Of a DNA stretch of 64,000 nucleotides, positions 218-56,730 are shown in pieces. Below the pieces are notes generated by a model. That model was given only the letters and a program-made list of their open reading frames with translations, did no database searches and had not been told where the DNA came from. Each line of letters begins with the position of its first letter. The stretch's first letter is position 1. Both the position numbers and the translations under genes were made by a program. Origin of the DNA: Coffea arabica (Eukaryota; Streptophyta; Magnoliopsida; Gentianales; Rubiaceae); NCBI RefSeq assembly GCF_036785885.1, contig NC_092312.1, forward strand, positions 20,974,001 to 21,038,000, written 5' to 3'.

Positions 218-2552
218 AGTTTTGCTGGATAAATTCTTTTCAAGGAAAGTAATGAGTTTGGAAGGACTTGGAGAAGAAACAAAGGATTTTAAGACTGAGG
301 ATTTTGGAAAAGTACAAATGGAAAGTTGAGGGAATCTGAGAAACCTCAAGTTTATACTGATTGAAAGAATCAAACATCTTGAGAGAAAGAGGCTTCAAAA
401 TCAAGGAAGAAGCTAAGCCCCCCCACCCCCCCTTTTCTCCTCCTCAGCTTTTGCTTTTCTCTTCCAGTGAAGCGATTAAGATGATCAAAATTGGCAATAA
501 ATAACAGTATATTTCTTGCAAGTTATGTAGCAAAGCCAAGAGGGGAAAGGAGAAGGAAGAGAAGGTTTTATTGTGAACTAAAGGAAGCGGCCGTTGGGCA
601 ACAGAAATTTAAAGTTCAGATTATGGGTAAAGTAAAGGTGATTCTCCCAGTGTATTTATATGACAAGAATACACTTTAGCTTTAATCAAAGGATAGTCTT
701 TATTTTGAGCAAGAGATGATGGAATTTCACTTTCAAAGTTCCAGTCATGGAGAATGATTAAGTTGGTCTCATACAAGTATTTTTCTGCTTTTCAAAGACC
801 AACAACAGCAGGCTTTGATATTTCATTTTTTGAAAATAAAACTGAAAACAAAAGTGCAAAAGTGGGCATCGTAATCAATGCGTCATGCCACTACTACAAA
901 GCTATTTTGTGTCATTTTGACACAAATGTACGACACAGAAGAGATGCGCAGGTGAGAGAGAGCAAGGTTGTTGGAATTTATGGGCAAATATGCATCCCCA
1001 ACCTGTAGCTTCAATTCTACTTCTGCATGCTTGCTTAGTACTTGTGTATCAGCAAAATTATACCATCTTGGCGTCATTTTGGTGTTTGCAGTTTGTTGCG
1101 GCTTTCCAATTTGCGTGTTTACTGAGTACGAAATGCTCTCATCAAATTTGTCATAATAACCAATTCAAGAATCGTCGAATTGATCTTGTACCTTGTTAAT
1201 AGTATATGCTGTTCCGGGAATAAATAGCATAAGGAATCTGGACGTACAAAGCCCCCTAATTATGCTGTTCCTGCATGCCATTGAAATTTGCCTCCCTTCA
1301 AATACTTCTTGTACCTGCAAAAAAATCATACCAAATGCTGGCCTTTCAAGACTGGCTGTACAGCTAGGGATACCAGGATACTTAATAGCTTTAAGTTTCT
1401 AATAAAGAGAATCAGTAAGGGTTTCGTCATGCAAAGATAGTTATTTCATATTTCATCAGGTGCACGATGATTTTGTATATATGTTCAAAAGTTCAGTCCT
1501 TCATCATCAACCACAATTAAAAGAAAGAAAGAAAGAAAAAATAATAATAACGGTAGTAGTATTGCGCACAACTAAGGGATGGCATTGGAGGATGAATCCC
1601 TAATGATCCTCCCCCTGTCTTTGTATCAAATTGTTCGCATGGCACATGTACGGCACTGGATAGGAGCACTCAAGATAAGACTAGATTTGAGGACACAGTT
1701 TTGTGTACTTTGATGTCCGTGTATCTGATCATGTACTATTACACTTACACATGCTTAATTTTCTATTACCGAATGTAATATTTTCTACTGCCTCGAGTAC
1801 AATCAGGAGACAAATGCCTGCAACATTAACAGTAGATGTAAGACGTAAAAGATGATGATAATTAATATATCATTACCATGTTTTTTTGAGGGAATGATCT
1901 GTAAATAATTACTGTGCAGAGAGTACTGTGGTCATGGGGTTGCATGGAAGAAGCAACCAGGAAAGCTTTTCTTCTTCTGCAGCCGCTGCTTTATTCCATT
2001 TTCTTTCTTTCTTGATCGCTTGCCCTACAGGTCTGGGACCAAGTCTCTATGTAATCTAATGTGTATTTGAGCTTTATTAGAAGATGGAATAGTCCTAAAG
2101 AGAGGGCTGAAAAGCAAAAGCAGAGAGAATACTTAATTTGCTTTTGATCATCTCCCCACTTGGAAAGAAAGAAAAAGAAAATCCATGATCCCTCACTTCA
2201 CATGGAAAGGAGTGCTGGCCTGCTGGGCTGGCTCTCTTGTTGCGGTATTAAGTTGAACAGTGAAGACTCATCAGAGCTGAGAGACAGGCATGAGACACCC
2301 TAGCCTCCTTCTCTCTTAGAAAACAGAAAACAAAAAGAAAAAAGAAAAAAGAAAATCCATGGCCCCAAATGCATGGAAAAGAGTGCTCTTGTTTATGTCT
2401 ACGTGAATTCAATTCAATTGTACATATCTTTCTCTTTCTTAGTTGTGGCTTTTTCATTTTTTTTCAGTATAGAAAGAATGTGGCTTGGCTCCACTTGTGT
2501 TTAAAACTCGTGTGGCAAGACTTGTGCACTACATGGGCAAGAGTAGTGACCG
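218..2552. other. Upstream region of the BAM3-like gene; no other gene seen
   Basis: The first few hundred bases should hold the 5' UTR and promoter of the minus-strand receptor kinase. A C-rich run lies near 418-432. The rest is AT-rich with short purine tracts. Short ORFs here have no recognisable domain and no coding-like composition. Confidence 0.5.
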
Positions 2553-2976
2553 CAAGGCTGCAAACGAGCCGGCGCGGGCGGCTCGAGTCGAGTTCAAGCT
2601 GGATCGAATCGAAATCGAGCTCGAACTCGAGTTCAACATATTAAACTCCGACTCGCGAGTTCGAGTATATATATTTTTTTATTTTTTTATTTTAAGTATA
2701 TATATTTTTAATTTTTTTATTTTAATAGTAAAATTACATATATATCATTAATATTTTATTATTTATTAAGAAAAAAATATTATTTTATAAAAAATAAAAT
2801 AAATATTTTTTATTTTTTTCGAACTCGAGCTCGGCTCGAATCAAGTCGAGCTCGAGCTCGAGTTTGAAATTGTCAGCTCGTCGAACTTGAGTTCAAGCTC
2901 GATTTCAATGAAATTATGTCGAGACTCGACTCAATTAGACCAAAATTCGACTCGATTCGACTCGTTTGCAACCCTA
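2553..2976. mobile_element. hAT-like non-autonomous element, CTCGAG-rich family, copy 1
   Basis: The ends are inverted: GGCTGCAAACGAG at the left and CTCGTTTGCAACCCTA at the right. Both arms are full of GAGCTCGA-type motifs and the centre is an AT-rich core. It is the same family as the elements at 3207, 6525 and 7544. The left terminus has lost the TAGG start, and no clean 8-bp target duplication remains, so the left boundary is approximate. Confidence 0.72.
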
Positions 2977-3206
2977 GGCAAGACGCAAGAAAGGCGCTTT
3001 TTTGAGGAGTCTCTGTCTATCCAACTGATACAGGAAGGTCTCTGAGGTCTCCCCTGTTTTGAAGGGTCATTTTCTTGTGGTCTTGCTGTAGCCAAAGCCC
3101 TCCCGTGGGCTGAAGTCCTTGTAATTTGTACGCAGCATGGGGAACTAGTTTTGGACTGATGTCTAAGAAGGTGCTGTACCTTAGCCTTAAATCAAATCAC
3201 TATCAC

Positions 3207-3555
3207 TAGGGTTGCAAACAATCGAGTCGAACTGTGATTTGATTGAGCCGAGTTTTGATTTAAGTTTATCAAACTCGAACTCGAGTTCGACGAGTTGACA
3301 ATTTAAAGTTCGAGCTCGAAAAAGTAAGAAATAATTATTTTATTTTTTAAAAAATAAATAATATAATATTTTTTTAATAAATAATAAAATATTAAAGATA
3401 TATATGAAATTTTATTATTAAAATAAATAAATATATTTATATGCTCGAGTTCGAGTTCAAGTTGGATTTGATTAGCTCAAGCTCAATATTGATCGAGTTC
3501 AAATCGAATTTTGATTCGAGTCGCTCGCGAGCAGTTCTTTTCATTTGCAGCCCTA
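3207..3555. mobile_element. hAT-like non-autonomous element, CTCGAG-rich family, copy 2
   Basis: Inverted ends TAGGGTTGCAAAC and ATTTGCAGCCCTA flank arms rich in TCGAG and an AT-rich core. The flanks ACTATCAC (3199-3206) and ATCATCAC (3556-3563) match at 6 of 8 positions, which fits an aged 8-bp target duplication. There is no coding capacity. Confidence 0.78.
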
Positions 3556-6524
3556 ATCATCACTGTGTGATGTGATGATTCCTTAGAAACCACTTAACTC
3601 AAGATTATGCAATTAACCGTGACCTTGTGCTGCCTGTTTCTGTCAAGGGCTCGGGGAGGGGTTGAATTCCCACTTCGGCGGAGCTCCTTGAATTAATCCA
3701 CACTTTTTTAAAAGGGGTGATTAGCTCATGGCTGATTTACAAGTTTTCACTATGCCAGCCTTTTAACTTGTCTTCTTAATCCCTTAAGGCTTTCTCATGA
3801 ACAGTATCAATCAGAACAGAAACTTTCTTGGTCAGAAAGCCCAGAGAAAATTGTCAGTCCTGTTCATGTGTGCATTTATTTTGAAGGATTATTAAGGGGC
3901 TGAAACATCAAAGGCAGGCAACTGCTGACACTTGAAGAGTTGGGATTATTTCCAATTCTTTTTTTTTTTTTTTTGAGTTTAATTAATTCGGATCATATTC
4001 GCAAAGTTGCAGATTTTTGCTTGGGTTCCATCAAGACAAGAATCTGTGGATACACGTCAGATACAGTCAACGGCCAAACTGATGATGACCAATTATTAGA
4101 TGCATCATTTCTTTGATCGGAAACAATAATTAATGACTCGGGAATGAACAGCATGGTTCTCGATTTGGCCTGCTGCTCAAAGATAGATATCCTCATTACT
4201 GTTGCAGAGCCCTTTCTTCAGCAAAGAGCAAACTAACATGTTTGTCCTCTCGTCTGTGATCAGATGAGGTACGGTCCTAAAGTCTGTCCTTTTGCCTTTG
4301 TTTATTTCTCTGGCAGATGGAGATGTCCTTTTTCACTTTGCTACCCACCCATTCAATTTCAAGGCGGAGTTAGTTATCAACTTTGAGAGACTGATGCTGG
4401 AACCTCACTTGCACCATACGAAAAATGATTGGCTCCCCGTCCCCGGTGACAGTCTACAGTTTTCTCTTTAATTCAAGTGGTCCCTCTCAACTCTCAAGTA
4501 TGAAACTCTCGAGTGGGCTGAGTCGTTTTCACTTCCAATCAACCAGCCACGGGCGAAGCAGCAATCCTCCTCTCCTCTGATTGTAGGTCGGGGGTGCACA
4601 TCTTGCATTTGCAATTAAATCAAACGATGTGTAGTGGCATACTCCTTTAATTTAGAGATGGGTTTTTGTTCTTTTAACGCTTCGTAGTTGATATTGGCTG
4701 GAGTCGGAGTAGTACGCAAATATTGGCCATTTACTTAACTAAAAACTATATACGTGCCAATTCTTTCTCAATTCAAGAACTAAATTCTTGTTTTTTTATA
4801 TGATTTCAAGGATGCAAGAGGTTTATGTGTATGACTCTCAATTGTTACGCATAATCCTAGAAAATCATAATGCTCAATTGAAAAAGAGAGGGGCTACTGT
4901 TGATTTGACCAAATAGAGCTCAACAGATGGATGAAAAAAGAAAGAAAGAAAAAGCTGAGGCATTCGCATTTTGCCTCAGATGGGGAACTTTAGGCCTTTG
5001 AGGGATGCTCTATGAAGCTTTATCTTGGAAGAAGATGATTTTTTTTTCCCTCTTTTTCTGAGGGATCAAAGAAGATCAACTAGTAAGTAGAAAGAAGAAA
5101 AAGAAAGGACAAAGCAAGCATCTTTAGAAGGTGGCCTGGCTTTCATTTCATTTAGAAGTTGGTCCGAAAACAAAACCAACACCCTCCCCTGCCTTCCAAC
5201 AGAGATCAAGAGGCCTTCAAATATTTTCAGTTTTTTTGGATGTTCGAAAATCCCTAGCACAGTACAAGAAAAAAAAATTTAATTCATATGTGATAATAAC
5301 AAACGAGTAAATCTTATATACACTGACAGTGTATACATTATCACCGTTTGATTCATGACATGTGTACAAAAGTTAAATTTCAAATTCAAATTTTGCATCG
5401 TTGTCATTCATCCAACGCTCAGAATGTATATACTGTTAGTATAGGAAAGATTAATCCACAGCAATAAGGTGTCACGGAATTTCACAGTCGTGCTAAAAAA
5501 AAATCTAGTGATGATTGATGTACGTACACATAAGGCTAATCTTTGAACCATTTACATCTAACTTATTTTGCAAGTCGCTTTCTTCTCCGCTCCAAAATAG
5601 CCACGCTCCCGTTTGCAGGTCCGCAGGTGCGATCCTTCTCTCTCGCACCCACTGGATTTATATGCCACTAGGGGCCAATCGGGGTCCCGGAAATCCTCCA
5701 ATGTCCAGCTTCTTTTCTGGGGCTGCCTCTGGTGTCCTGTCCTTTTTTTTTTTTTTTTTTTTGCGTTAACCTTTTTGTTAATTTCCCAGAAACCTAGAAA
5801 GAGTTGGTCTAGTAATTATCTTCTTCTTCTTCTTTAATTTTTTGTGAGAGTCATCAGATTTTGTCCTCAGTATACTTCTTGGTCTTCACCAATCTATACG
5901 ATTAAAGTTCGAGATGTGTAATCCTATAACAAAGATTTTGTATACATAATTTTAATGTGGTCAAAAGGAGAAGGGTTCGGTTTTTGAGCTTCATTTCATT
6001 TTTGGTGAAACACATCGAAATTTCGTTAATAAAATCTGCATTAATAGCAGAAATTACATGAGACATACAAAAAATATAATTTCATTTCCTCGAACACGCA
6101 TACTTGTGCTCCGAACTCCAATCCTTTCCAACTAAATCATTCGTCTGATTTTTATTTTTCTTTTAATTGTTGTGCTCGTCGTAGCTTATTCTTGACAAAT
6201 GAATCCATTTTTCTTCTTCATCTCTTGTGCACTTTAATTTAACACAATTTGTGACATAGAGCTGAATTCAAACAAAAAAATGTTACACCAAGATAATTGA
6301 ACTATAGGGTAAATGGTAGTAAACCACCTTATCGTTTGGTCCAAAATATAACAATTCAAAAATTGGTTGAAATTGAGCTAGTACTATAAGTTTTCTTTCC
6401 ATATTTAGCTAATTTAGAATTAGATCGACTTGAATGCTGGAGCTTAACTTCCTCTAGAGAGAGAGAAAAAAAGTTAAAAAAAAAAAAAAGAAAAAGCTAG
6501 CGTAACCATACAAGGGAATAAAAG
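3556..6524. other. Gene-free interval with AT-rich DNA
   Basis: No open frame here has recognisable domains or splice structure. A small MITE lies at 5308-5454. A T run at 5743-5762 and A-rich tracts near 6478 are the only simple sequence. Confidence 0.5.
5308..5454. mobile_element. Small MITE with TATACACTGACAGTGTATA-type ends
   Basis: The left end (TAAATCTTATATACACTGAC) is an imperfect inverse of the right end (TATACTGTTAGTATAGGAAA, then GATTA). The element is about 147 bp with no ORF. The termini are imperfect and a TA or TAA duplication is possible, so the superfamily is not assigned. Confidence 0.5.
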
Positions 6525-7010
6525 TAGGGCGGCAAACGAGCCGAGCCGAGTCGAGCTTTGAGCTAATCGAGCCGAGCCTCGACTAAATTTTACCAAGCTC
6601 GAGCTCGAGCTCGAGCTCGACGAGCTGGCAATTTTCGAGCTCGAGCTCGACTCGAATCAACTCGAGCCGAGCTCGAAAAAAATAAAAAAAAATTATTTTA
6701 TTTTTAAAAAAATAAAAAAATATAATATTTTTTTCTGAATAAATAATAAAATATTAAGGATATATACGTAATTTCACTATGAAAATAAAAAATTAAAATA
6801 TATTTATATATAATATACGTAATTTTATTATTAAATAAAAATAAAAAATATATATAAATATATATACTCAAGCTCGCGAGCCGGCTCGCGAGCTAACGAG
6901 CTTAATATTCTGAGCTCGAGTTCGAGCTCGAGTTTGACTCGAGCTGGCTCGAGCTCGACTCGAGCTTGACTCGAGCCGCTCGCGAGCGGCTCGATTCGTT
7001 TGCAGCCCTA
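6525..7010. mobile_element. hAT-like non-autonomous element, CTCGAG-rich family, copy 3 (best preserved)
   Basis: It begins TAGGGCGGCAAACGAG and ends TTCGTTTGCAGCCCTA. A perfect 8-bp target duplication, AATAAAAG, lies at 6517-6524 and 7011-7018. Long subterminal arms of alternating GAGCTCGAG motifs could pair, and the centre is nearly pure A/T. The 8-bp duplication together with TAGGG ends fits the hAT superfamily. No transposase is encoded, so mobility would need an autonomous partner. Confidence 0.88.
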
Positions 7011-7543
7011 AATAAAAGTACTGTAAAACTAGGATCAAAAGTTCAAGCATCATAATTTTGTTGACAGAATAAAGTGAATCCTTTAACTTAAATATACCAC
7101 AAGGAGTCCTCATATGTATGATTGACGTTGCCACTGGTAAGGATAGCGAATTTCAATGATAGCAATGAAGTCAAACAACGTATCGCTACTTGTAGTATTA
7201 ATTAATTAATCGGCATGATATATAATTATCATCACAAATCTCAAGTTTGCAACTTTAGTTGATTCATATTTAAGATAAATTAGAAGAATATTTGAGAAAA
7301 ATTAAGAAGCTATACTAAGATCTAATCCACTGGGATCGATCGCCTGAAGGATCCCATTCTCCCTTTTATTCACAACTTCTATGCTTTTCTTGGAAGTCCA
7401 CAATTTATCAAATGCAACTTGTGAGTATTTTTAGTTGACTTCAAGGGCGACTTTACAAAGTGGTGTTAATCTGAGTACATATGCAGTTGGAGTTTTCAAC
7501 CATAAATGCACCTCTTGCTACTAAAAATTACTTGTATAACCAA
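7011..7543. other. Spacer between two hAT-like copies
   Basis: AT-rich single-copy-looking DNA. I see no gene, RNA or repeat structure in it. Confidence 0.5.
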
Positions 7544-7936
7544 TAGAGCTACAAACGAATCAAGTTGCTCGCGACTGGCTCGAATCAGGTTTGAGTTGGC
7601 CAAATCGAACTCAAACTCGAGGTCAAGCTCCAAAATATTAAGCTCCGCTCGTGAGCTCGAGTGTGTGTGTATATACATATATATATAATTTATTTTTTAT
7701 TTTAATAGTAAATTATATTTATATTCCTAATATTTTATTATTTATTATGAAAAATTATTTTATTTATTTTTTAAAAAATAAAAATAATTATTTTTTTTTA
7801 TTTTTTCGAACTCGAACTTTATATTGGTAGCTCGTCAAGCTAGAGTTCTAACTCGAATTTGAGCTTAATAAAGCTAAGTCAAGACTCGACTTGATTAGAT
7901 CAAAACTCGACTCGACTCAACTTGTTTGCAGTCCTA
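7544..7936. mobile_element. hAT-like non-autonomous element, CTCGAG-rich family, copy 4
   Basis: Ends are TAGAGCTACAAACGA and TTTGCAGTCCTA. The flanking 8-mers ATAACCAA (7536-7543) and ATGACCAA (7937-7944) match at 7 of 8 positions. Arms with TCGAG motifs and an AT core match copies 1-3. It is more decayed than copy 3. Confidence 0.8.
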
Positions 7937-48766: not shown

Positions 48767-49277
48767 TTTTCCATTAAGGATTTTCTAGAACATTTTTGGA
48801 GATAGTTTAATTTCTTTCTTTGAATTTTCAGTAGTTTAGCTCCTTATACATTCTTAGTAGTTTAATTGGATTCATTCCCATCCCCTTCCCCCCTCCTACC
48901 CCTACAGCTATAAGACCAATTATAAAAATGTGTACTAAAAATAGAAAATGGAACACTTCTTGATCTAGATTCCATATGATATGGCCTGCCTCACTCAAAG
49001 AAGAGTCTTAATGGTCCTACTTCACTCTTGAGATGATTGAATTATTCCAATGGGAGGATCACACCAATCGTCCCTCACATATTGCAAATGTGAAAATTTA
49101 ATCCTTCAGAACAAAAATGATCAGTTTTAGTACCTAACAAATAAAAATGGATCAATTTTAGTCTCTTTGCACTTTTCCAAGCAATTTTTGGCTGGAATGT
49201 GTCATGCACACATCACGTGTGCGCAAATTTTAAGGGGTAAAAATGGTGGACTACTTTAATGTTGATAAAAAAAAAAA

Positions 49278-49526
49278 GGGAGAACTGCACAAATAGTCCC
49301 TCACATATTGCAAATGTGAAAATTTCGTCCCTCAGATCGAAAATGATCAATTTTAGTCCTTATCAAATAAAAAAGGATCAATTTGAGTCCCTTTTCACTT
49401 TTCCGACTGATTTTTGCCCGGAATATCTCACGTGCACACCACGTGGCCAACTTTTCAAGGGTAAAAATGCCAAACCACTTATCTGTTGACCAAAACCAAA
49501 ATGTAAAGGACGAATACTGCCCAAAA
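49278..49526 (+). repeat. Inner MULE left terminal inverted repeat
   Basis: This 249-bp arm contains CCACGTGGCC-type G-box sequence (49439-49448) and probably the promoter of the GRF gene, whose ATG is 51 bp downstream. It is inversely repeated at 55113-55361. Confidence 0.92.
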
Positions 49527-49576
49527 TTCTTCTTCTTCTTCATTTCAACCAAACCCAAAAGCTGAGCCTCATCTCC

Positions 49577-49971
49577 ATGGCAGAACCACCAAATTGTAAT
49601 TGCGGTGTACCAGCTAGGGTGAAGACGTCGTGGACAGTTGAAAATCCAGGAAAGCGGTTCTACGGTTGCGCTTACTACGAAGTAAGTGTGCCTGATTTCT
49701 GTTTCTTTTTTCTTTTAGAAAATGTGAAATTTGAAGAGGTAATTTTGAACAGCATAATGGTGGTGGCGGCTGTGGCTATTTCAAGTGGTATGATACAAAC
49801 AGTTGCGAGAGGTGCGATAAATTAGTGAGACACACAAGAAGATTGGCGAAGAGATTAAGAGAGTTGGAGGCAAAGGTGGAAGAAACAAGACGCAAGGAGA
49901 AAATGATGAAATTGTTCCTGTTTGCGGCCTTTGTTGTATTCATAGTGCAGAATTTATTGAGCAAAGATTGA
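49577..49971 (+). CDS. GRF-type zinc finger, coiled-coil, transmembrane protein (MULE-borne)
   Basis: Two exons, 49577-49681 and 49753-49971, join in phase 0 to give 107 residues. The N-terminal GRF finger has CNCG (Cys7, Cys9), TSWTVENPGKRFYGC (Cys31) and GGGGCGYFKWYD (Cys42), the usual CxC...C...C ligands, with a second pair CERC just after. A charged helix, RLAKRLRELEAKVEETRRKE, is likely a coiled coil. A hydrophobic end, LFLFAAFVVFIVQNLL, is likely a tail-anchor membrane span. GRF fingers bind single-stranded nucleic acid in other proteins. It lies wholly inside the inner MULE, starts just inside the left terminus and faces the transposase gene. The role in transposition is an inference. 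Confidence 0.88.
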
Positions 49972-50824
49972 GTTGTGACTGGCATTTGTTGGTGCAGGTG
50001 GTGAACTGGGAACTGGGTGGTGAACTAGGAACTGGGTGGCTTTTATTTGTTGTACTTAGGTTGGGTTACGTTTAGTGGCCCTGTTGATTGTACAAATGGG
50101 AGTTGGAATGCAATTATGAAGCTTAAGTTCTTTCTAGTATATTGTGATTTTTTCTTGAATATGAGCTTACAGCACAAGATGGAATAAAAGTCTAACTTGA
50201 AAGATAATGCAGATGATAATGGCGATATTGCAGAGTTGGTAGGTAAAAGAATCTGTCAAAACTGCTGCTATACCGAAGCAGCAGCAGCAGGAGAGGGAAG
50301 AAAGCCGAAAGGGGAAGAAGGCATTAACACAAGATTTCATATTGCAGTCCACCATGTCTAGTCAGCCAAATATGAGACCAACAACATTAAAACCTGCCCT
50401 GCCAAAAACTTTTTAAGGATTAAGCCATATCAGAACTTGGCAAGGTTTCAACAACATTAACTAACTACTCAATATTTGTGTCAGTAAACAAAATTGGAGA
50501 CAACATAATTGTATATTCATTCTTCAGTCCTGCCAATGTCATCTGCTGAGGGTTCAACTAACCAATAATCAGTCCCTTCAAAAATAAGAAGAGCATGCAT
50601 TCCATTGCAATGAAAAAAAACAGTACATAACCGAGCCAAGTTCATTCATTACAATACGCCTGTTATAAAAAAAAATGCAATGAACTAAGAAGTCAATTCC
50701 ATTGCTCCAAAAAAAGGTCTGCTGAAGTTAAATACAAGACAAAAAGGCGAAAAATAATCCATTTGCAGCACTTTTTTGTAGATATCTTTGCAGTCATCCC
50801 TCTTTGCAATAACAGGCCAGTCAT
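49972..50824. other. Spacer between the two convergent MULE genes
   Basis: This holds both 3' ends. A short duplication of GGTGAACT(G/A)GGAACTGGGTGG sits near 49999-50038. I see no third gene. Confidence 0.5.
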
Positions 50825-53800
50825 CTAGGCCTTTTTAGCCCTCTTTGCAGCACTTTTAGAAGTAGATATATTTGCAGTATTCTTGGGCCTCTGATACAAA
50901 AAAAAACAATGAAGAAGTCATTACTTACAGTCAATAGCAATTTTTGCAGTCTTAAAAGTAGATATCTTTGCAGTCTCTTTAGATTATGCACGTAGTAGAC
51001 AATACTTACAGCCAATTCAGGTGGTTCCCATGGGTGTCTCTTATAGAGAGAGGCCAATGTTGAATCACAACTACTTCGAGTGTGTCCAAATCTCCGACAT
51101 ACACCACATCTGTACTTGACTTTCTTACCCTGACAATTGGCAACCAGAAATTCAAGTAAATAAATAATAGTATAGAAAGAAGTCAACATGCTATTATTAG
51201 TATGAACAAATAGAGAAACATGAACTGGAGATGTTGCATTCTTTGTTGTCAATGTTGAAGTAGGTGGTTGGCTGGTTGTAGGTTGATCTGGGATTTGACT
51301 GATGAGATCAAACAAGACTTGGTCATTTGTATCAGTCTCCAAGCCACTTGCACCAAAAACTGCTTTAGGTGTGAAATTGGACTGCTGAGGTTGGGACTGC
51401 TTGTTTGCACCAGGATTTATAGTGTTGGGAGTCTGCTGTTGTGATTGAGAGCCACTTGCACCAAAAACTGCTTCAGGTGTGAAATTGGACTGCTGAGGTT
51501 GGGACTGCTTGTTTGCACCAGGATTCATAGTGTTGGGAGTCTGCTGTTGTGATTGAGAGCCACTTGCACCAAAAACTGCTTCAGGTGTGAAATTGGACTG
51601 CTGAGGTTGGGACTGCTTGTTTGCACCAGGATTCATAGTGTTGGGAGTCTGCTGTTGTGATTGAGAGCTACTTGTAACCGCAGCAGCTTGTTGCTGGAGA
51701 TTCTCTTGATCATGACTGCTTGGACACTTCCTACTATTGTGGCCCTTCTGTTTACACTTTCTGCACTTATAATCCATTAGACCAACTCTAGACAGTCTCT
51801 TTGTTTGTCCTTGAAAAGTTGTTGTAGCTGGTGGCTCATCTGGCTCTTTTCTTCTTACCTTCTTTGGCCGGCCAGGAAGCTTGATGGTTTCAGGTGGTAG
51901 GACAGGCCCCTGTTTCAAATCCTTCCACAAATGCTCACCATTGAGAGGATATATTATAGGCCCATATGCCTTCATATAGGCCTCTTTTGAGTAGCATTCA
52001 TGAACAAAGTTCTCGGGAGACTCCTTTGTCAAAGCAATGGCACTTATTGCATGAGCACAAGGAATGCCATTTAGTTCCCACCTTCTACAACTACAAGTTC
52101 TGCTAGCCAAATTCACAGTGTACCTATCCCCATACATACATCTCACCTCATAATTCCAGTCCCCTGAAGGTGTAGCTATACATGCACTAGAAGCAGTTTT
52201 TACCTTTTCCAACTTTTTTAAAATTTTGGGACATACCTTTCCTGTATACTTCTGCATCCACTCCCTCTTATTCTCCATTCTAACCATTAAATAAAGTCGT
52301 ATTGTTTCCAACATACCTAGTATAGGCCTCTCCCTTGCTTCTAAAATGCTGGAGTTGAAACTCTCACAAAGATTGTTCAATAAAATGTCACATTTAGGGG
52401 AGGTTCTGAAGTAAGCTCTGGACCATTGCTGTGGTGTTGTGTTGTCAACCAACCATTGAAATGCACCCTCATCAACTGCTTTCAAAGCTTCCATCAAAGC
52501 CTTGAACAGATTTTTGTAAGGAGCTCTTGCAAGTGCCCAAATTCTCTCCTTTAATGCCAAACCACCATGCAGCTTTTTAAAGTTATTGTACATGTGTCTC
52601 ACACACATCCTATGCTCCACATCTGGAAGCAACTCTTGAATAGCTTGAATCAGTCCCTTCAACAAATAAAAAGGTGAAACCAGATCATTAAATTAAAACT
52701 AGCAAACTCAGTTTAAAAAAATCCCAGAAAAATACACTAACATACCTTTTGTTTATCAGTAATAATTGTCCAATGATTTTCATCTCTGATTTGGAGGTCA
52801 TTCAGCAATTCACCTACGAACCATTTCCAAGTCAGCTTGTTTTCTATTTCCACCACAGCATAGGCAATGGGGTACAACTGATCATTGGGGTCAATTCCTA
52901 CAGCTGTAAGCAACACACCCTTGTGGGGCCCTCTAAGATGGCAGCCATCTAACCCGACAACAGGCCTACAACCACTTAAAAAACCTGTCTTGCATGCATT
53001 GAGACAAATATACAACCTCTCAAACCTATCTTCTCCCTCATCATCTTCAACAGTGGTCATGAAAACATTTGAGCCAGGATTAGCCCTCTTTACTTCCCTA
53101 CAATAGTTTCTTAGTTTGTTGTATTGGGCTTCATGTTCACCATTAACTAAACTCTCTGCCTTTTTCTTAGTTCTATAAGCTTGCCACCTAGAGATGTTGA
53201 CATTAACATCAGTCTTCACTTTATCTGTGAGCGTACTCACTTTCATGTCGGCCATGGCAGCCAGCTCCTTTTTGTATCTATCAACCAAAAAAGTTGAATT
53301 TGCTAGTCCGTGGTCAAATGTCCTCCCACAACTGTGTTTACCTTGCATGCTCTTGATTTGAAAAGTCTTTTTGTCTAGCATAACAGCTGTAGAAACTTTC
53401 CAGCTACAGTCCTTGCAATAAGCCGTAACTCTTCTGCCATCATTTTTACTGAATTTTATCTTCCTTCCGTGAACCACTCCATGGCTCTTGCATGCCTTCA
53501 TGAACAACTGCTTACAAGTAAAAATCTGCCCAACCTCAAATTTGGGATCAATCATATCAGTTTCAGGGTTAAATTTTGGAAACTTAGCTCTTTTTCTTGG
53601 CTGATCTTCTTCTACTTCTGAGTCACACCAACTATCAAATTCATCTGAGTCAGTGGCATCTTCTTCCATCTCAGCATTCTCCACTTGACATGTTCTTTCC
53701 TTTGTACTCTTATTTGATTTGCAATTTTTGGCAATTTTCTCCCATTCAGCTTTTTTGTCTTTAACAGATTTTACTATGTCTTCTTCATCACTGAACTCAT

Positions 53801-54951
53801 AGTCACTATCAATGAACTTGTCACCATCAGCACATTCCTCATCTTCCTCAGCATGTGTCTCCTTCTTACTCTTCTTCTTTTTCTTAAATTTTTCAGCCTG
53901 CTCTTTATTTGTTGAGAATGTTTTCTTTAATGATTTCTCTTTTGGTGATTTGTTAGTAGAAGGTGCATTTTTTCCTGAATTCTGTACTTCTGAGTTTGTC
54001 CAATCTTGTTCTTTTCTAAAATTCTGATCAGGCCCTCCTATATTTGCTGCACTATCCCCTTTATCAGCAACTCTAATGTCAAATTCTGAAAGCATTTCAC
54101 CTAAGTTCTCTCCTATGGCTGCTTCCTCTATGTGTTTATTAGCTCCTGACTCACCAGCACCTATGCTATCCTTTTCACCCTCATTTTCTGATTGAGTTAC
54201 AGGAATATTAGTCAACATTATTTCTTCTACATCAGAAGGTTCTTCATGCACCTTACTACCCTGTTGATTTTCCTTAGGATCAGTCCCCTCTTTTGGTTTA
54301 CATGGTCCAGCTTCACATTCACTTATGGAGTAGGTTTTTAAGTGCACAAAGTATACATCAACCAAACCATATTTCACTCCATCCCTAGCCAAATCCTGAG
54401 CAACATCTTCACATAACACATACACTAACCCATCCTCCATGTTCTTCCCGGGTATCAAGTAATAGTATATTACAGTAAACTCAGGATAACCCAGTTTTTC
54501 TGCAACCCTATCAAGTGTACATATAGACCATCTGTCAGGATTGCAACAGTCAACAATTTTTACACTACCCCCGCGATATTCCTTGTTCGGCAACTCAGTG
54601 AATTCACCTCCATAGTGGACCCTAATGGAAAATCGATTCATACCATCTGCCAACCATTTAGGAGACAGTTAACAACAAAAAAATTGTTTTGGGACCGACA
54701 GCCCATCTATGTAAAGCGACAACACAGCACAATACAAGGGACCACATGTACTTACAACAATTTAATACATAAAATTGACCACCAGCAACCCTAATCAATA
54801 TAATAATGCTTCTTAACTGCACAAATCATGCTTATTTCAACTGTATTTAAACTATTCACATAGTATCTGACATCATTCCATAAATTTTACAGTTTAGGGT
54901 TTAGAAAAACATACCGTAATTTGGGATCCATTGAATGTCTTCTTCGTCCAT
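50825..54951 (-). CDS. MuDR-class MULE transposase
   Basis: Exons in transcript order: 54951-54915 (MDEEDIQWIPNY), 54646-52746, 52656-51010 and 50890-50825, all with GT/AG borders and matching phase; about 1216 residues. A further 96-nt intron near 51130-51225 is possible (about 1184 residues if removed). Domains: MuDR N-terminal fold (FSIRVHYGGEF to VDVYFVH, about 18-115); acidic/Lys-rich linker; MuDR DNA-binding-type domain (FEVGQIFTCKQLF to GKHSCG); DDE core with Asp579 (VVGLDGCHL), Asp643 (IITDKQKG) and a Glu near 744 (NLCESFNSS); SWIM finger Cys834, Cys836, Cys846, His848; zinc knuckle CRKCKQKGHNSRKC at about 944-957; Gln-rich triple repeat; second knuckle CGVCRRFGHTRSSC; basic tail KSAAKRAKKA. 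No frameshift or stop interrupts it. The start sits 160 bp inside the right terminus. Confidence 0.92.
51343..51666 (-). repeat. Three 108-bp tandem repeats in the transposase
   Basis: Each unit encodes 36 residues, beginning SQSQQQTPNT and ending EAVFGASG or KAVFGASG. The units differ at only a few bases, so the expansion is recent. Confidence 0.93.
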
Positions 54952-55112
54952 CACTCTGGTATGCCTGTTTCTTCTTCGCTTTAGTCACTAACACTCATTT
55001 CCATCAACATCAGTCCACTGCTGGGTAGTGGGTAGTGATAATTAAGTTTTTTTGTTTGGGTTGAGAGAAATCAGAGATGGAACGGTGAGTTAGTACCAAA
55101 ATGGAGATTTTT

Positions 55113-55361
55113 TTTTGGGCAGTATTCGTCCTTTACATTTTGGTTTTAGTCAACAGATAAGTGGTTTGGCATTTTTACCCTTGAAAAGTTGGCCACGTGG
55201 TGTGCACGTGAGATATTCCGGGCAAAAATCAGTCGGAAAAGTGAAAAGGGACTCAAATTGATCCTTTTTTATTTGATAAGGACTAAAATTGATCATTTTC
55301 GATCTGAGGGACGAAATTTTCACATTTACAATATGTGAGGGACTATTTGTGCAGTTCACCC
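55113..55361 (-). repeat. Inner MULE right terminal inverted repeat
   Basis: This is the inverse of 49278-49526 with about three mismatches. It probably carries the transposase promoter; the ATG is at 54951. Confidence 0.92.
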
Positions 55362-55371
55362 AAAAAAAAAA

Positions 55372-56500
55372 TGTGAGGGACCATTACTCCTCAACCTCCT
55401 TCAACTCTTCCAAACCCTAAATCTAAGCTTTATCACTAATGGCAGAAGTATGAAAAATTTGCTCGGTTAGTAGTTTGAAAGGAAGGAAAAAATGCTTGTG
55501 TAGTTTTGATCCTCCCACGTCTTCTGGTGTTAATTAATTAGAGTTAAATAGAGGGATTTCCTCTTCATACGTGGAAAGGAAGAATTTGGAGGAAAAGAAT
55601 TGCAACATCTAACTCTAAGATATAAAAACAAGAACCCAGAAACCAAGATGCAGAACTCTCAGACTCCAACCTTTTTTCTTCCAAAAAAACGGATAAAACA
55701 AAGAAAGGAGACCCCCAATTAACTCTTGCCGCTAGCATCCTCCTATAGCTTATCATCCAATATCCAACAATAGCTTCTGAAGATCTCCCAAAGGCCACCA
55801 AATATTCAACATCATTAAAAAAAAAAAAAAAAAAAAAACTTTCTCAATGTCTCTATAGTTTCGTATGCTTTTAACTCTTTCCCCACCCTTGGCAGAACAT
55901 CCAGTCCACCATTTCTATTATTATGCATTATTGGACAAGGTGAAAATCTATCCATGAAGAGCACTCAATTTTGAAATAGAAAATAACCATTAAAAAGTAG
56001 TACTTCTCACTCGAAGTCTTCAGCATAAATTGTACCAATGAAAGTGTCTTAATGCCCCCAATTTCAGATCTGGAGATAAGAATCATCCTTGACATAAGAC
56101 GAAATAGCAGGAAAAAATTAATTAAAAGAGTTAAAAGGAAAATCAAGATCTGGAGAGGGATGTTTCTTGGATTCACTTCATCCCACTTCAATCTCCTATC
56201 CTTCTATTCTCCTCGGGTTCAAACTCATGTTTTCTTCCCTCGACCCTCTCTTCATTCCTTCCTAGATCCGAATGGTCCAGAGACAAATACACAACTATTG
56301 CTTGAAAGTTTTTTGAGCGTGCATTTGATTTCTTTAGTCAAACTCCTTTTATTTTCATTTAATTAAGAGTCCAAGTTGATCTGAACTTTTGAAGACTTTT
56401 TGAATATTATTATGTGCAAAGTGTGATGCGCCTATTTTCTGTTTAAGGGATCTACAATTTAGGCGGTGGACCAAGTTCATGCAGGTATTTGCCTGTATTT
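55372..56500. other. Interior of the outer MULE, possibly captured host sequence
   Basis: This is the part of the outer element between the inner insertion and the outer right arm. An A run lies at 55819-55838. Open frames (55928-56191 minus, 56052-56366 plus) have no domain I recognise. Capture of host DNA (Pack-MULE) is possible but unproven. Confidence 0.5.
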
Positions 56501-56721
56501 TTTTGGCCAATATTGAAGTGGTTTGTCCATTTTTACCCTTTAAAAGTTAGGCACGTGATGTGCGCGTGACACATTCCGGCCAAAAATTGCTCGGAAAAGT
56601 GCAAAAGGACTAAAAATGGATCCTTTTTTATTTTGTTGGAGACCAAAATTGATCATTTTCATTCTAAGGGACTAAATTTTCACATTTGCAATACGTGAGG
56701 GACGGCTAATCCAATTCTCCC
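56500..56721 (-). repeat. Outer MULE right terminal inverted repeat
   Basis: This is an inverted match, with more divergence, to 49052-49265, sharing CAATACGTGAGGGACG-type and GTGACACATTCCGGCCAAAA blocks. The right target-site copy TATTCCAAT follows directly. Confidence 0.85.
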
Positions 56722-56730
56722 TATTCCAAT

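Follow-up and report, generated by a model that had tools for sequence, protein, structure and literature searches.

What does the second gene of a Mutator element do? The question has been open since mudrB, and it is raised again by a locus of Coffea arabica at which the second gene encodes a GRF zinc finger protein: is such a gene an inherited part of its transposon, or a host gene captured once? The locus lies in a 64,000-nucleotide stretch of contig NC_092312.1 (positions 20,974,001 to 21,038,000); the whole stretch is called the window here, and its positions are counted from its first letter. Window positions 49278-55361 are a complete Mutator-like element (MULE), in which a transposase gene (minus strand) and a GRF gene (plus strand) face each other. 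We judge it likely that this is a recently active, probably autonomous MULE, and that its GRF gene is a long-inherited, selected accessory gene of this and other MULE lineages. The pairing of the gene with MULE transposases, purifying selection, the parallel divergence of the two genes and a shared protein tail together argue for an inherited accessory gene rather than a one-off capture. Being tiny, selected and made of two parts, the gene also gives the old question a testable handle.

The genome (1.198 Gb in 131 contigs) was searched with the GRF protein, the second exon of the transposase and the terminus as queries. Each GRF search scored the best 150 of 748-1116 candidates, and the 514 GRF places so listed are the ones compared below. 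Among 67 loci with a related transposase (36-100% identity), a GRF gene lies within 20 kb of 59 and within 6 kb of 53, and every one of the 59 pairs is convergent. When the 514 GRF places were positioned at random in 200 runs, again within 20 kb and with any orientation allowed, a mean of 1.3 and a maximum of 6 loci were paired, so a chance neighbourhood of the two genes is rejected. By transposase identity, a GRF gene was found within 20 kb at 7/7 loci (95-100%), 10/11 (76-94%), 10/14 (52-75%), 18/21 (47-51%) and 14/14 (30-46%). The proposal that the 47-51% and 36-42% groups are devoid of the gene was refuted once their own GRF genes served as queries. The sequence-only reading had staked its case on co-occurrence in the same orientation, against the prospect of related MULEs that consistently lack the gene; it was borne out, in that most related transposases have it, all seven near-identical copies included.

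The association extends to more distant transposases. In a remoter family, at least 45 of 126 loci have a GRF neighbour within 20 kb, of which 39 are convergent, 4 share the strand of the transposase and 2 are divergent (random placement gives a mean of 2.1 and a maximum of 7). Among the best 150 matches to the MULE domain the corresponding number is at least 36 (30 convergent, 3 on the same strand, 3 divergent; random mean 2.6, maximum 7), and all 30 convergent genes lie more than 6 kb away. Both counts are lower bounds because only the best 150 candidates of each GRF search were scored. A supposed transposase-GRF fusion at C15:48.97M, the one inspected of three same-strand cases, resolved into two distinct genes that share a strand. 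Counted by GRF place, a listed transposase lies within 20 kb in convergent orientation at 131 of the 514 and in another orientation at 15. Five stretches holding other GRF classes (L059, L060, L061, L062 and L068) have a convergent transposase in three cases, broken in L061. In L067 (757-4348), a gene for a GRF protein with a tail comes after a FAR1-type MULE transposase (821 codons) and shares its strand, so the pairing may extend to the FAR1 branch. All 30 of the nearest GRF loci examined adjoin a recognisable copy of the window terminus; thus no recent host copy was seen among those 30, and the one-off host capture that the sequence-only reading had set up as its other test did not materialise. 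The accessory role that it proposed for one element family therefore stands, and its scope was understated, since the GRF gene accompanies several MULE lineages here. The family of L060 (e.g., C7:4631464-4636874) is a second MULE family with at least 22 GRF copies at 86-100% identity, and it may be as young as that of the window. At C9:8634100-9047553, five equal-scoring GRF matches fall within 0.41 Mb, a possible local cluster.

Seven full copies of the window's element are present, on C3 (the window), C8 (two), C12, C15 (two) and C17. Their transposases are 96-100% identical, both termini are present, and the convergent GRF gene occurs with an open frame in all seven. The second GRF exon is 93-96% identical as scored, the window's own row scoring 96 because its alignment begins in the intron. 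The distance from GRF gene to transposase varies from 2592 to 2892 bp, and in one copy the transposase exon used as query is interrupted by three stops. Target duplications read by eye from the flanks of the other six copies were AAAAATGAA, ATAAAAGTT, TTGTTTTTT, AAAAAGAAT, AAGTGGATT and the 10-bp TTTCTAATAA. Matched terminus pairs roughly 1.5-2.5 kb apart suggest, from their coordinates only, shorter derivatives. Judged from its sequence, the window element was probably active recently and is probably autonomous.

The GRF gene is under purifying selection. Nei-Gojobori estimates cover 17 copies in the window's group whose frame is open for 95 codons or more; L029, L030 and copies with an earlier stop were left out, L020 was retained with its stop after codon 99, and exon 2 of L016, L018, L034 and L038 was given its start from an alignment rather than from a seen AG. 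The seven young copies form 21 pairs, which are not independent and which together give a pN/pS of 0.35 (40 synonymous and 56 non-synonymous differences). Between the window and its most diverged copies, dN/dS is 0.21 (L025), 0.34 (L031), 0.13 (L034) and 0.12 (L038), at dS values of 0.34-2.0 that come near 2 for L034 and L038; for six intermediate copies it is 0.38-0.66. Old copies compared with each other give ratios around or above 1 (L016-L017, 1.03; L016-L020, 1.14; L020-L022, 2.94; L034-L038, 1.24), as expected because copies decay after insertion. The two genes have also diverged in parallel: identity to the window's GRF exon 2 and identity to its transposase are correlated (Spearman 0.91) over 25 pairs that are not independent, with GRF hits in exon 1 only, pairs more than 20 kb apart, families B and D and the window copy left out. 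As placed by eye, the GRF intron occupies the same position in the finger in families A (window), B (L060) and D (L059).

Further evidence of age comes from the window itself. The element sits in the left terminus of an older MULE at 49052-56721, a nesting missed by the sequence-only reading. The left (49052..49277, plus strand) and right (56500..56721, minus strand) termini of this outer MULE match each other at 174 of 213 aligned positions, and the 9-bp target duplication TATTCCAAT is perfect on both flanks (49043-49051 and 56722-56730). Just inside its left terminus, at 55396..55447 on the plus strand, is a relic that aligns with the leader and the ATGGCAGAA start of the inner GRF gene (75% over 52 bp). 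The alignment stops at the third codon, and the remainder of the GRF gene was not found in the outer MULE. None of 2000 dinucleotide shuffles reached the observed score under any of three scoring schemes, nor did any of 816 other stretches of the window on both strands. The outer leader was also compared with the inner element on its transposase side, and homology there was rejected, since 1, 23 and 60 of 2000 shuffles reach that score under the three schemes. The relic's alignment with both leader and start indicates that an older relative had the same gene start at the same place. Past the relic, the interior of the outer, non-autonomous MULE (approximately 55450-56500) has no clear likeness to the inner element.

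The GRF gene (49577-49971, plus strand) consists of two exons and encodes 107 amino acids. Exon 1 (49577..49681) supplies 35 codons and the first half of the zinc finger; the intron (49682..49752; GTAAGT...ACAG) falls inside the finger and is 71 bp in all seven full copies; and exon 2 (49753..49971) adds the second half of the finger, a charged region that is probably a coiled coil, a hydrophobic C-terminal tail and the stop. The Pfam model Zn_ribbon_GRF matches the protein with E = 6.9e-11 and 42.5 bits (cut-off 25.9), placing it in the GRF family, and six further GRF proteins exceed the same cut-off. In a phmmer search against PDB chains, the GRF fingers of NEIL3 were the best two of 16 matches (E = 0.0018 and 0.005). 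DUF730, an Arabidopsis family, matches residues 6-87, the finger plus the coiled-coil region, with E = 1.6e-6, its score of 28.6 falling below the cut-off of 32, so the protein is not counted as a member; the same model gives 0.0024 for the GRF protein of L059 and no match at E <= 0.1 to five others scanned. Searches of phage and viral collections, made with the GRF protein only, returned no relative.

A hydrophobic stretch lies within the last 22 residues of the window's protein, the best 19-mer having a Kyte-Doolittle mean of 2.11 and ending 3 residues from the C-terminus. The same holds for all eight GRF proteins compared (the window, L034, L059, L060, L061, L062, L067 and L068, of which L061 and L062 are intronless): the 19-mer lies 0-8 residues from the C-terminus with a mean of 1.3-3.1, and by hydropathy it is a single hydrophobic segment at the extreme end. 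A hydrophobic stretch close to the C-terminus is the usual form of a tail anchor, and the GRF protein thus probably carries a C-terminal membrane tail. Pfam and hydropathy in this way confirm the 107-residue finger protein with predicted coiled coil and hydrophobic tail that had been described from the letters. Hydropathy alone does not prove membrane insertion, and the tail could instead be a buried oligomerisation helix and the finger a protein-contact module, for PCNA or the transposase for example, in a soluble nuclear cofactor. The finger of APE2 does contact PCNA in addition to binding single-stranded DNA (PMC6122073; articles are cited here from part of their text except where the main text is named). 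The form and position of the stretch in eight of eight proteins favour an anchor, and we regard the soluble cofactor as unlikely.

The anatomy of the element is that of a MULE of the MuDR type. Its terminal inverted repeats, on the GRF side (49278..49526, plus strand) and on the transposase side (55113..55361, minus strand), are each 249 bp long and differ by 3 mismatches, a Jukes-Cantor distance of 0.012. The start codons lie 50 bp (GRF) and 161 bp (transposase) inside their respective termini, so that the second gene stands convergent and just inside the opposite terminus. Each gene starting just inside a near-identical terminus, each is probably driven by it, and we infer that the termini act as promoters for both. 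A scan with bacterial promoter models found nothing, and such models carry no meaning for this plant DNA. The window copy is flanked by 11 A's on the left (49267..49277) and 10 A's on the right (55362..55371), and its own target duplication is uninformative because it falls in this poly-A; duplications of MULE size are seen instead in the six sister copies (9-10 bp) and at the outer MULE (9 bp). Since it has a transposase, and since none of the 30 nearest GRF loci is a closer host copy, the element is not a Pack-MULE. Elsewhere in the window, a further nested group of elements is suggested by several repeats of 65-116 bp, both inverted and direct, at 2581-7803.

The transposase gene has five exons on the minus strand, placed by eye from reading frames and splice sites, and reads through. 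Exon 1 (54915..54951), short and close to the right terminus, was not in the list of open reading frames, and its inclusion gives 1184 residues. Exon 2 (52746..54646) encodes an acidic region, the DBD_Tnp_Mut domain and the MULE domain with D579 and D643; exon 3 (51226..52656) encodes E745, the SWIM finger and a CCHC motif; exon 4 (51010..51129) encodes a second CCHC-like motif, the donor of the preceding intron 3 (GTTCAT) being a guess; and exon 5 (50825..50890) ends in the stop. In exon 3, at 51342-51689, three copies of a 132-nt stretch recur at 108-bp spacing. The Pfam models MULE (7.8e-20), SWIM (4e-9) and DBD_Tnp_Mut (2.7e-6) all score above their cut-offs, and two zinc-knuckle models, including the one for the exon 3 motif, match below theirs. 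Together with CVRH at 664, which falls between D643 and E745, the DDE residues located by motif form what we take to be the DDE/CxxH signature. The claims of the sequence-only reading on the element were thus confirmed: a complete MULE on a MuDR-like convergent two-gene plan, both genes beginning just inside a 249-bp terminus, and an intact transposase with DDE residues, SWIM finger and no stops.

Several observations weigh against a long-inherited, selected accessory gene. Eight of the 67 related transposase loci are without a listed GRF gene within 20 kb; three of these are tandem copies 22-34 kb from a GRF gene and one is 25 kb from one, and no GRF match was found in the GRF-side flank of four of the eight, the four flanks examined. 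Two of these four, L065 (approximately 1823-3469) and L066 (approximately 2026-3500), hold a broken copy of histone H3 where the GRF gene would be, oriented toward the transposase; being 95-98% alike over most of their shared stretch, they indicate that MULEs can achieve at least some spread in the absence of the GRF gene. In L001 and L062 the GRF gene lies between inverted repeats (146 bp at 98% and 86 bp at 95%, respectively), and no transposase match was found in either. In the remoter sets only at least 45 of 126 and at least 36 of 150 loci are paired, with six in each list not convergent, and 368 of the 514 GRF places are without a listed transposase within 20 kb. Six of those 368 were drawn at random, and the first two inspected both had a convergent MULE transposase; one of the two lies between inverted repeats 290 bp long and 93% identical. 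Within the young set of seven, the core of the finger is altered in two copies, L014 (C to Y) and L012 (G to V). The second exon of the transposase has a pN/pS of 0.63 among six of the seven young copies, the seventh lacking the exact start string searched, and constraint on the transposase among young copies is therefore weak. Of two GRF proteins sampled later and read by eye, L070 ends in a hydrophobic stretch and L069 has 14 residues after it. Lastly, the authors of work on the barley Abermu element state that its convergent ORF may be unimportant for transposition (PMC9168764).

Some of these observations would fit other histories of the gene. Different MULE lineages could have captured host GRF genes repeatedly and independently, and kept them because the slot favours short genes. 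The intronless genes of L061 and L062, that of L067 (behind its FAR1-type transposase, on the same strand) and that of L068 encode proteins that align with the window's over only 25-36 residues, as such captures would predict. Against this, the hydrophobic tail is common to all eight proteins, families A, B and D share the place of their intron, and GRF gene and transposase diverge in parallel within the window's group; we consider repeated capture improbable. A second possibility, which we hold to be about equally doubtful, concerns function rather than origin: the GRF protein could be an anti-silencing factor like VANC, protecting its own family from methylation or small-RNA silencing by the host and taking no part in cut-and-paste. 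VANC does show that MULE accessory genes can counter silencing (PMC5735166), and an accessory gene kept across lineages suits any benefit that acts in trans. However, VANC belongs to the DUF1985/DUF287 proteins and binds to motifs of duplex DNA (PMC5735166), the GRF protein is a small one with a hydrophobic tail, and the window terminus has no match (E <= 1e-5) in 18 loci of other GRF/transposase classes, some of which may exclude their element's terminus. A Pack-MULE passenger, functionless cargo from a single capture of a host GRF gene, is very improbable and is rejected, for although MULEs capture host genes frequently, histone H3 in this very slot of L065 and L066 included, the GRF gene is present in seven of seven young copies and in the same orientation beside transposases down to 36% identity, is under purifying selection, adjoins a MULE terminus at 30 of 30 nearest loci, and kept the same start in the older element of the window.

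If the GRF gene is an inherited accessory gene, how might its product serve the element? By analogy, we tentatively propose, as the likeliest of the mechanisms considered but one on which we would not insist, that a tail-anchored GRF protein aids reinsertion. The sequence-only reading had likewise suggested that the protein may act on single-stranded DNA ends or at the nuclear membrane. The protein would be anchored by its tail with the finger toward the cytosol or nucleoplasm; the finger would bind single-stranded or gapped DNA at the cut ends, as the APE2 finger does, or else a repair partner; the coiled coil might join GRF copies to one another or to the transposase; and the tail would hold the complex at the nuclear envelope or endoplasmic reticulum. 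Such a complex could help the excised element to survive and reinsert, a step for which maize MURB is reportedly needed, being described as required for new insertions (PMC9168764). A broader reading is also conceivable, and in our view rather unlikely: plant MULEs in general may have had, from their ancestor on, a tail-anchored GRF finger protein as the product of their second gene, with the ORFR of Abermu and perhaps the gene in the mudrB slot among its forms, and this protein would carry cut ends to the nuclear envelope for reinsertion as a membrane-tethered cofactor of transposition.

The GRF gene looks like a standard but undescribed helper part of MULEs. No report linking a GRF gene to MULEs was found in the open-access literature on GRF and DUF730, consisting mostly of titles and abstracts and with subscription papers and Repbase outside its scope. 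The term GRF is absent from the main text of PMC6446971, PMC3310237, PMC4486113 and PMC13317346, and a table in the first of these, a review of Mutator elements, lists PMD, DUF, FAR1 and unknown ORFs and no GRF. We suggest that transposons account for many of this genome's hundreds of GRF genes, a point that matters for annotation because GRF zinc finger genes are mentioned in trait-mapping papers.

Among known systems, the closest in plan is maize MuDR (mudrA and mudrB), which likewise has two oppositely transcribed genes between long termini, those of Mu elements being given as about 210 bp, and a MULE transposase. They differ in the second gene, which is mudrB there and encodes a GRF protein with a tail here, as judged from layout and description; mudrB is described as confined, or apparently confined, to Zea (PMC3276141, PMC2725143). 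The cereal Abermu elements also have an ORFR opposite the transposase, situated in type II between the transposase and the 3' terminus (PMC9168764). Compared by description only, they differ in that no domain is named for ORFR in the part of that article cited; ORFR has Ka/Ks < 1 and is given there as of unknown function, with no similarity between the ORFRs of distant plants (PMC9168764). VANDAL elements (VANA, VANB and VANC) share the combination of a MULE transposase with accessory genes, one of which acts in trans; in contrast to the protein studied here, VANC is a duplex-binding DUF1985/DUF287 protein for which the cited portion names no GRF finger (PMC5735166). Pfam DUF730 spans both finger and coiled-coil region of the window's protein, differing in that the score lies below the family cut-off. 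The finger family itself is shared with APE2 and NEIL3, where the finger is an appendage of a repair enzyme, whereas here it makes up about half of a small protein with a hydrophobic tail.

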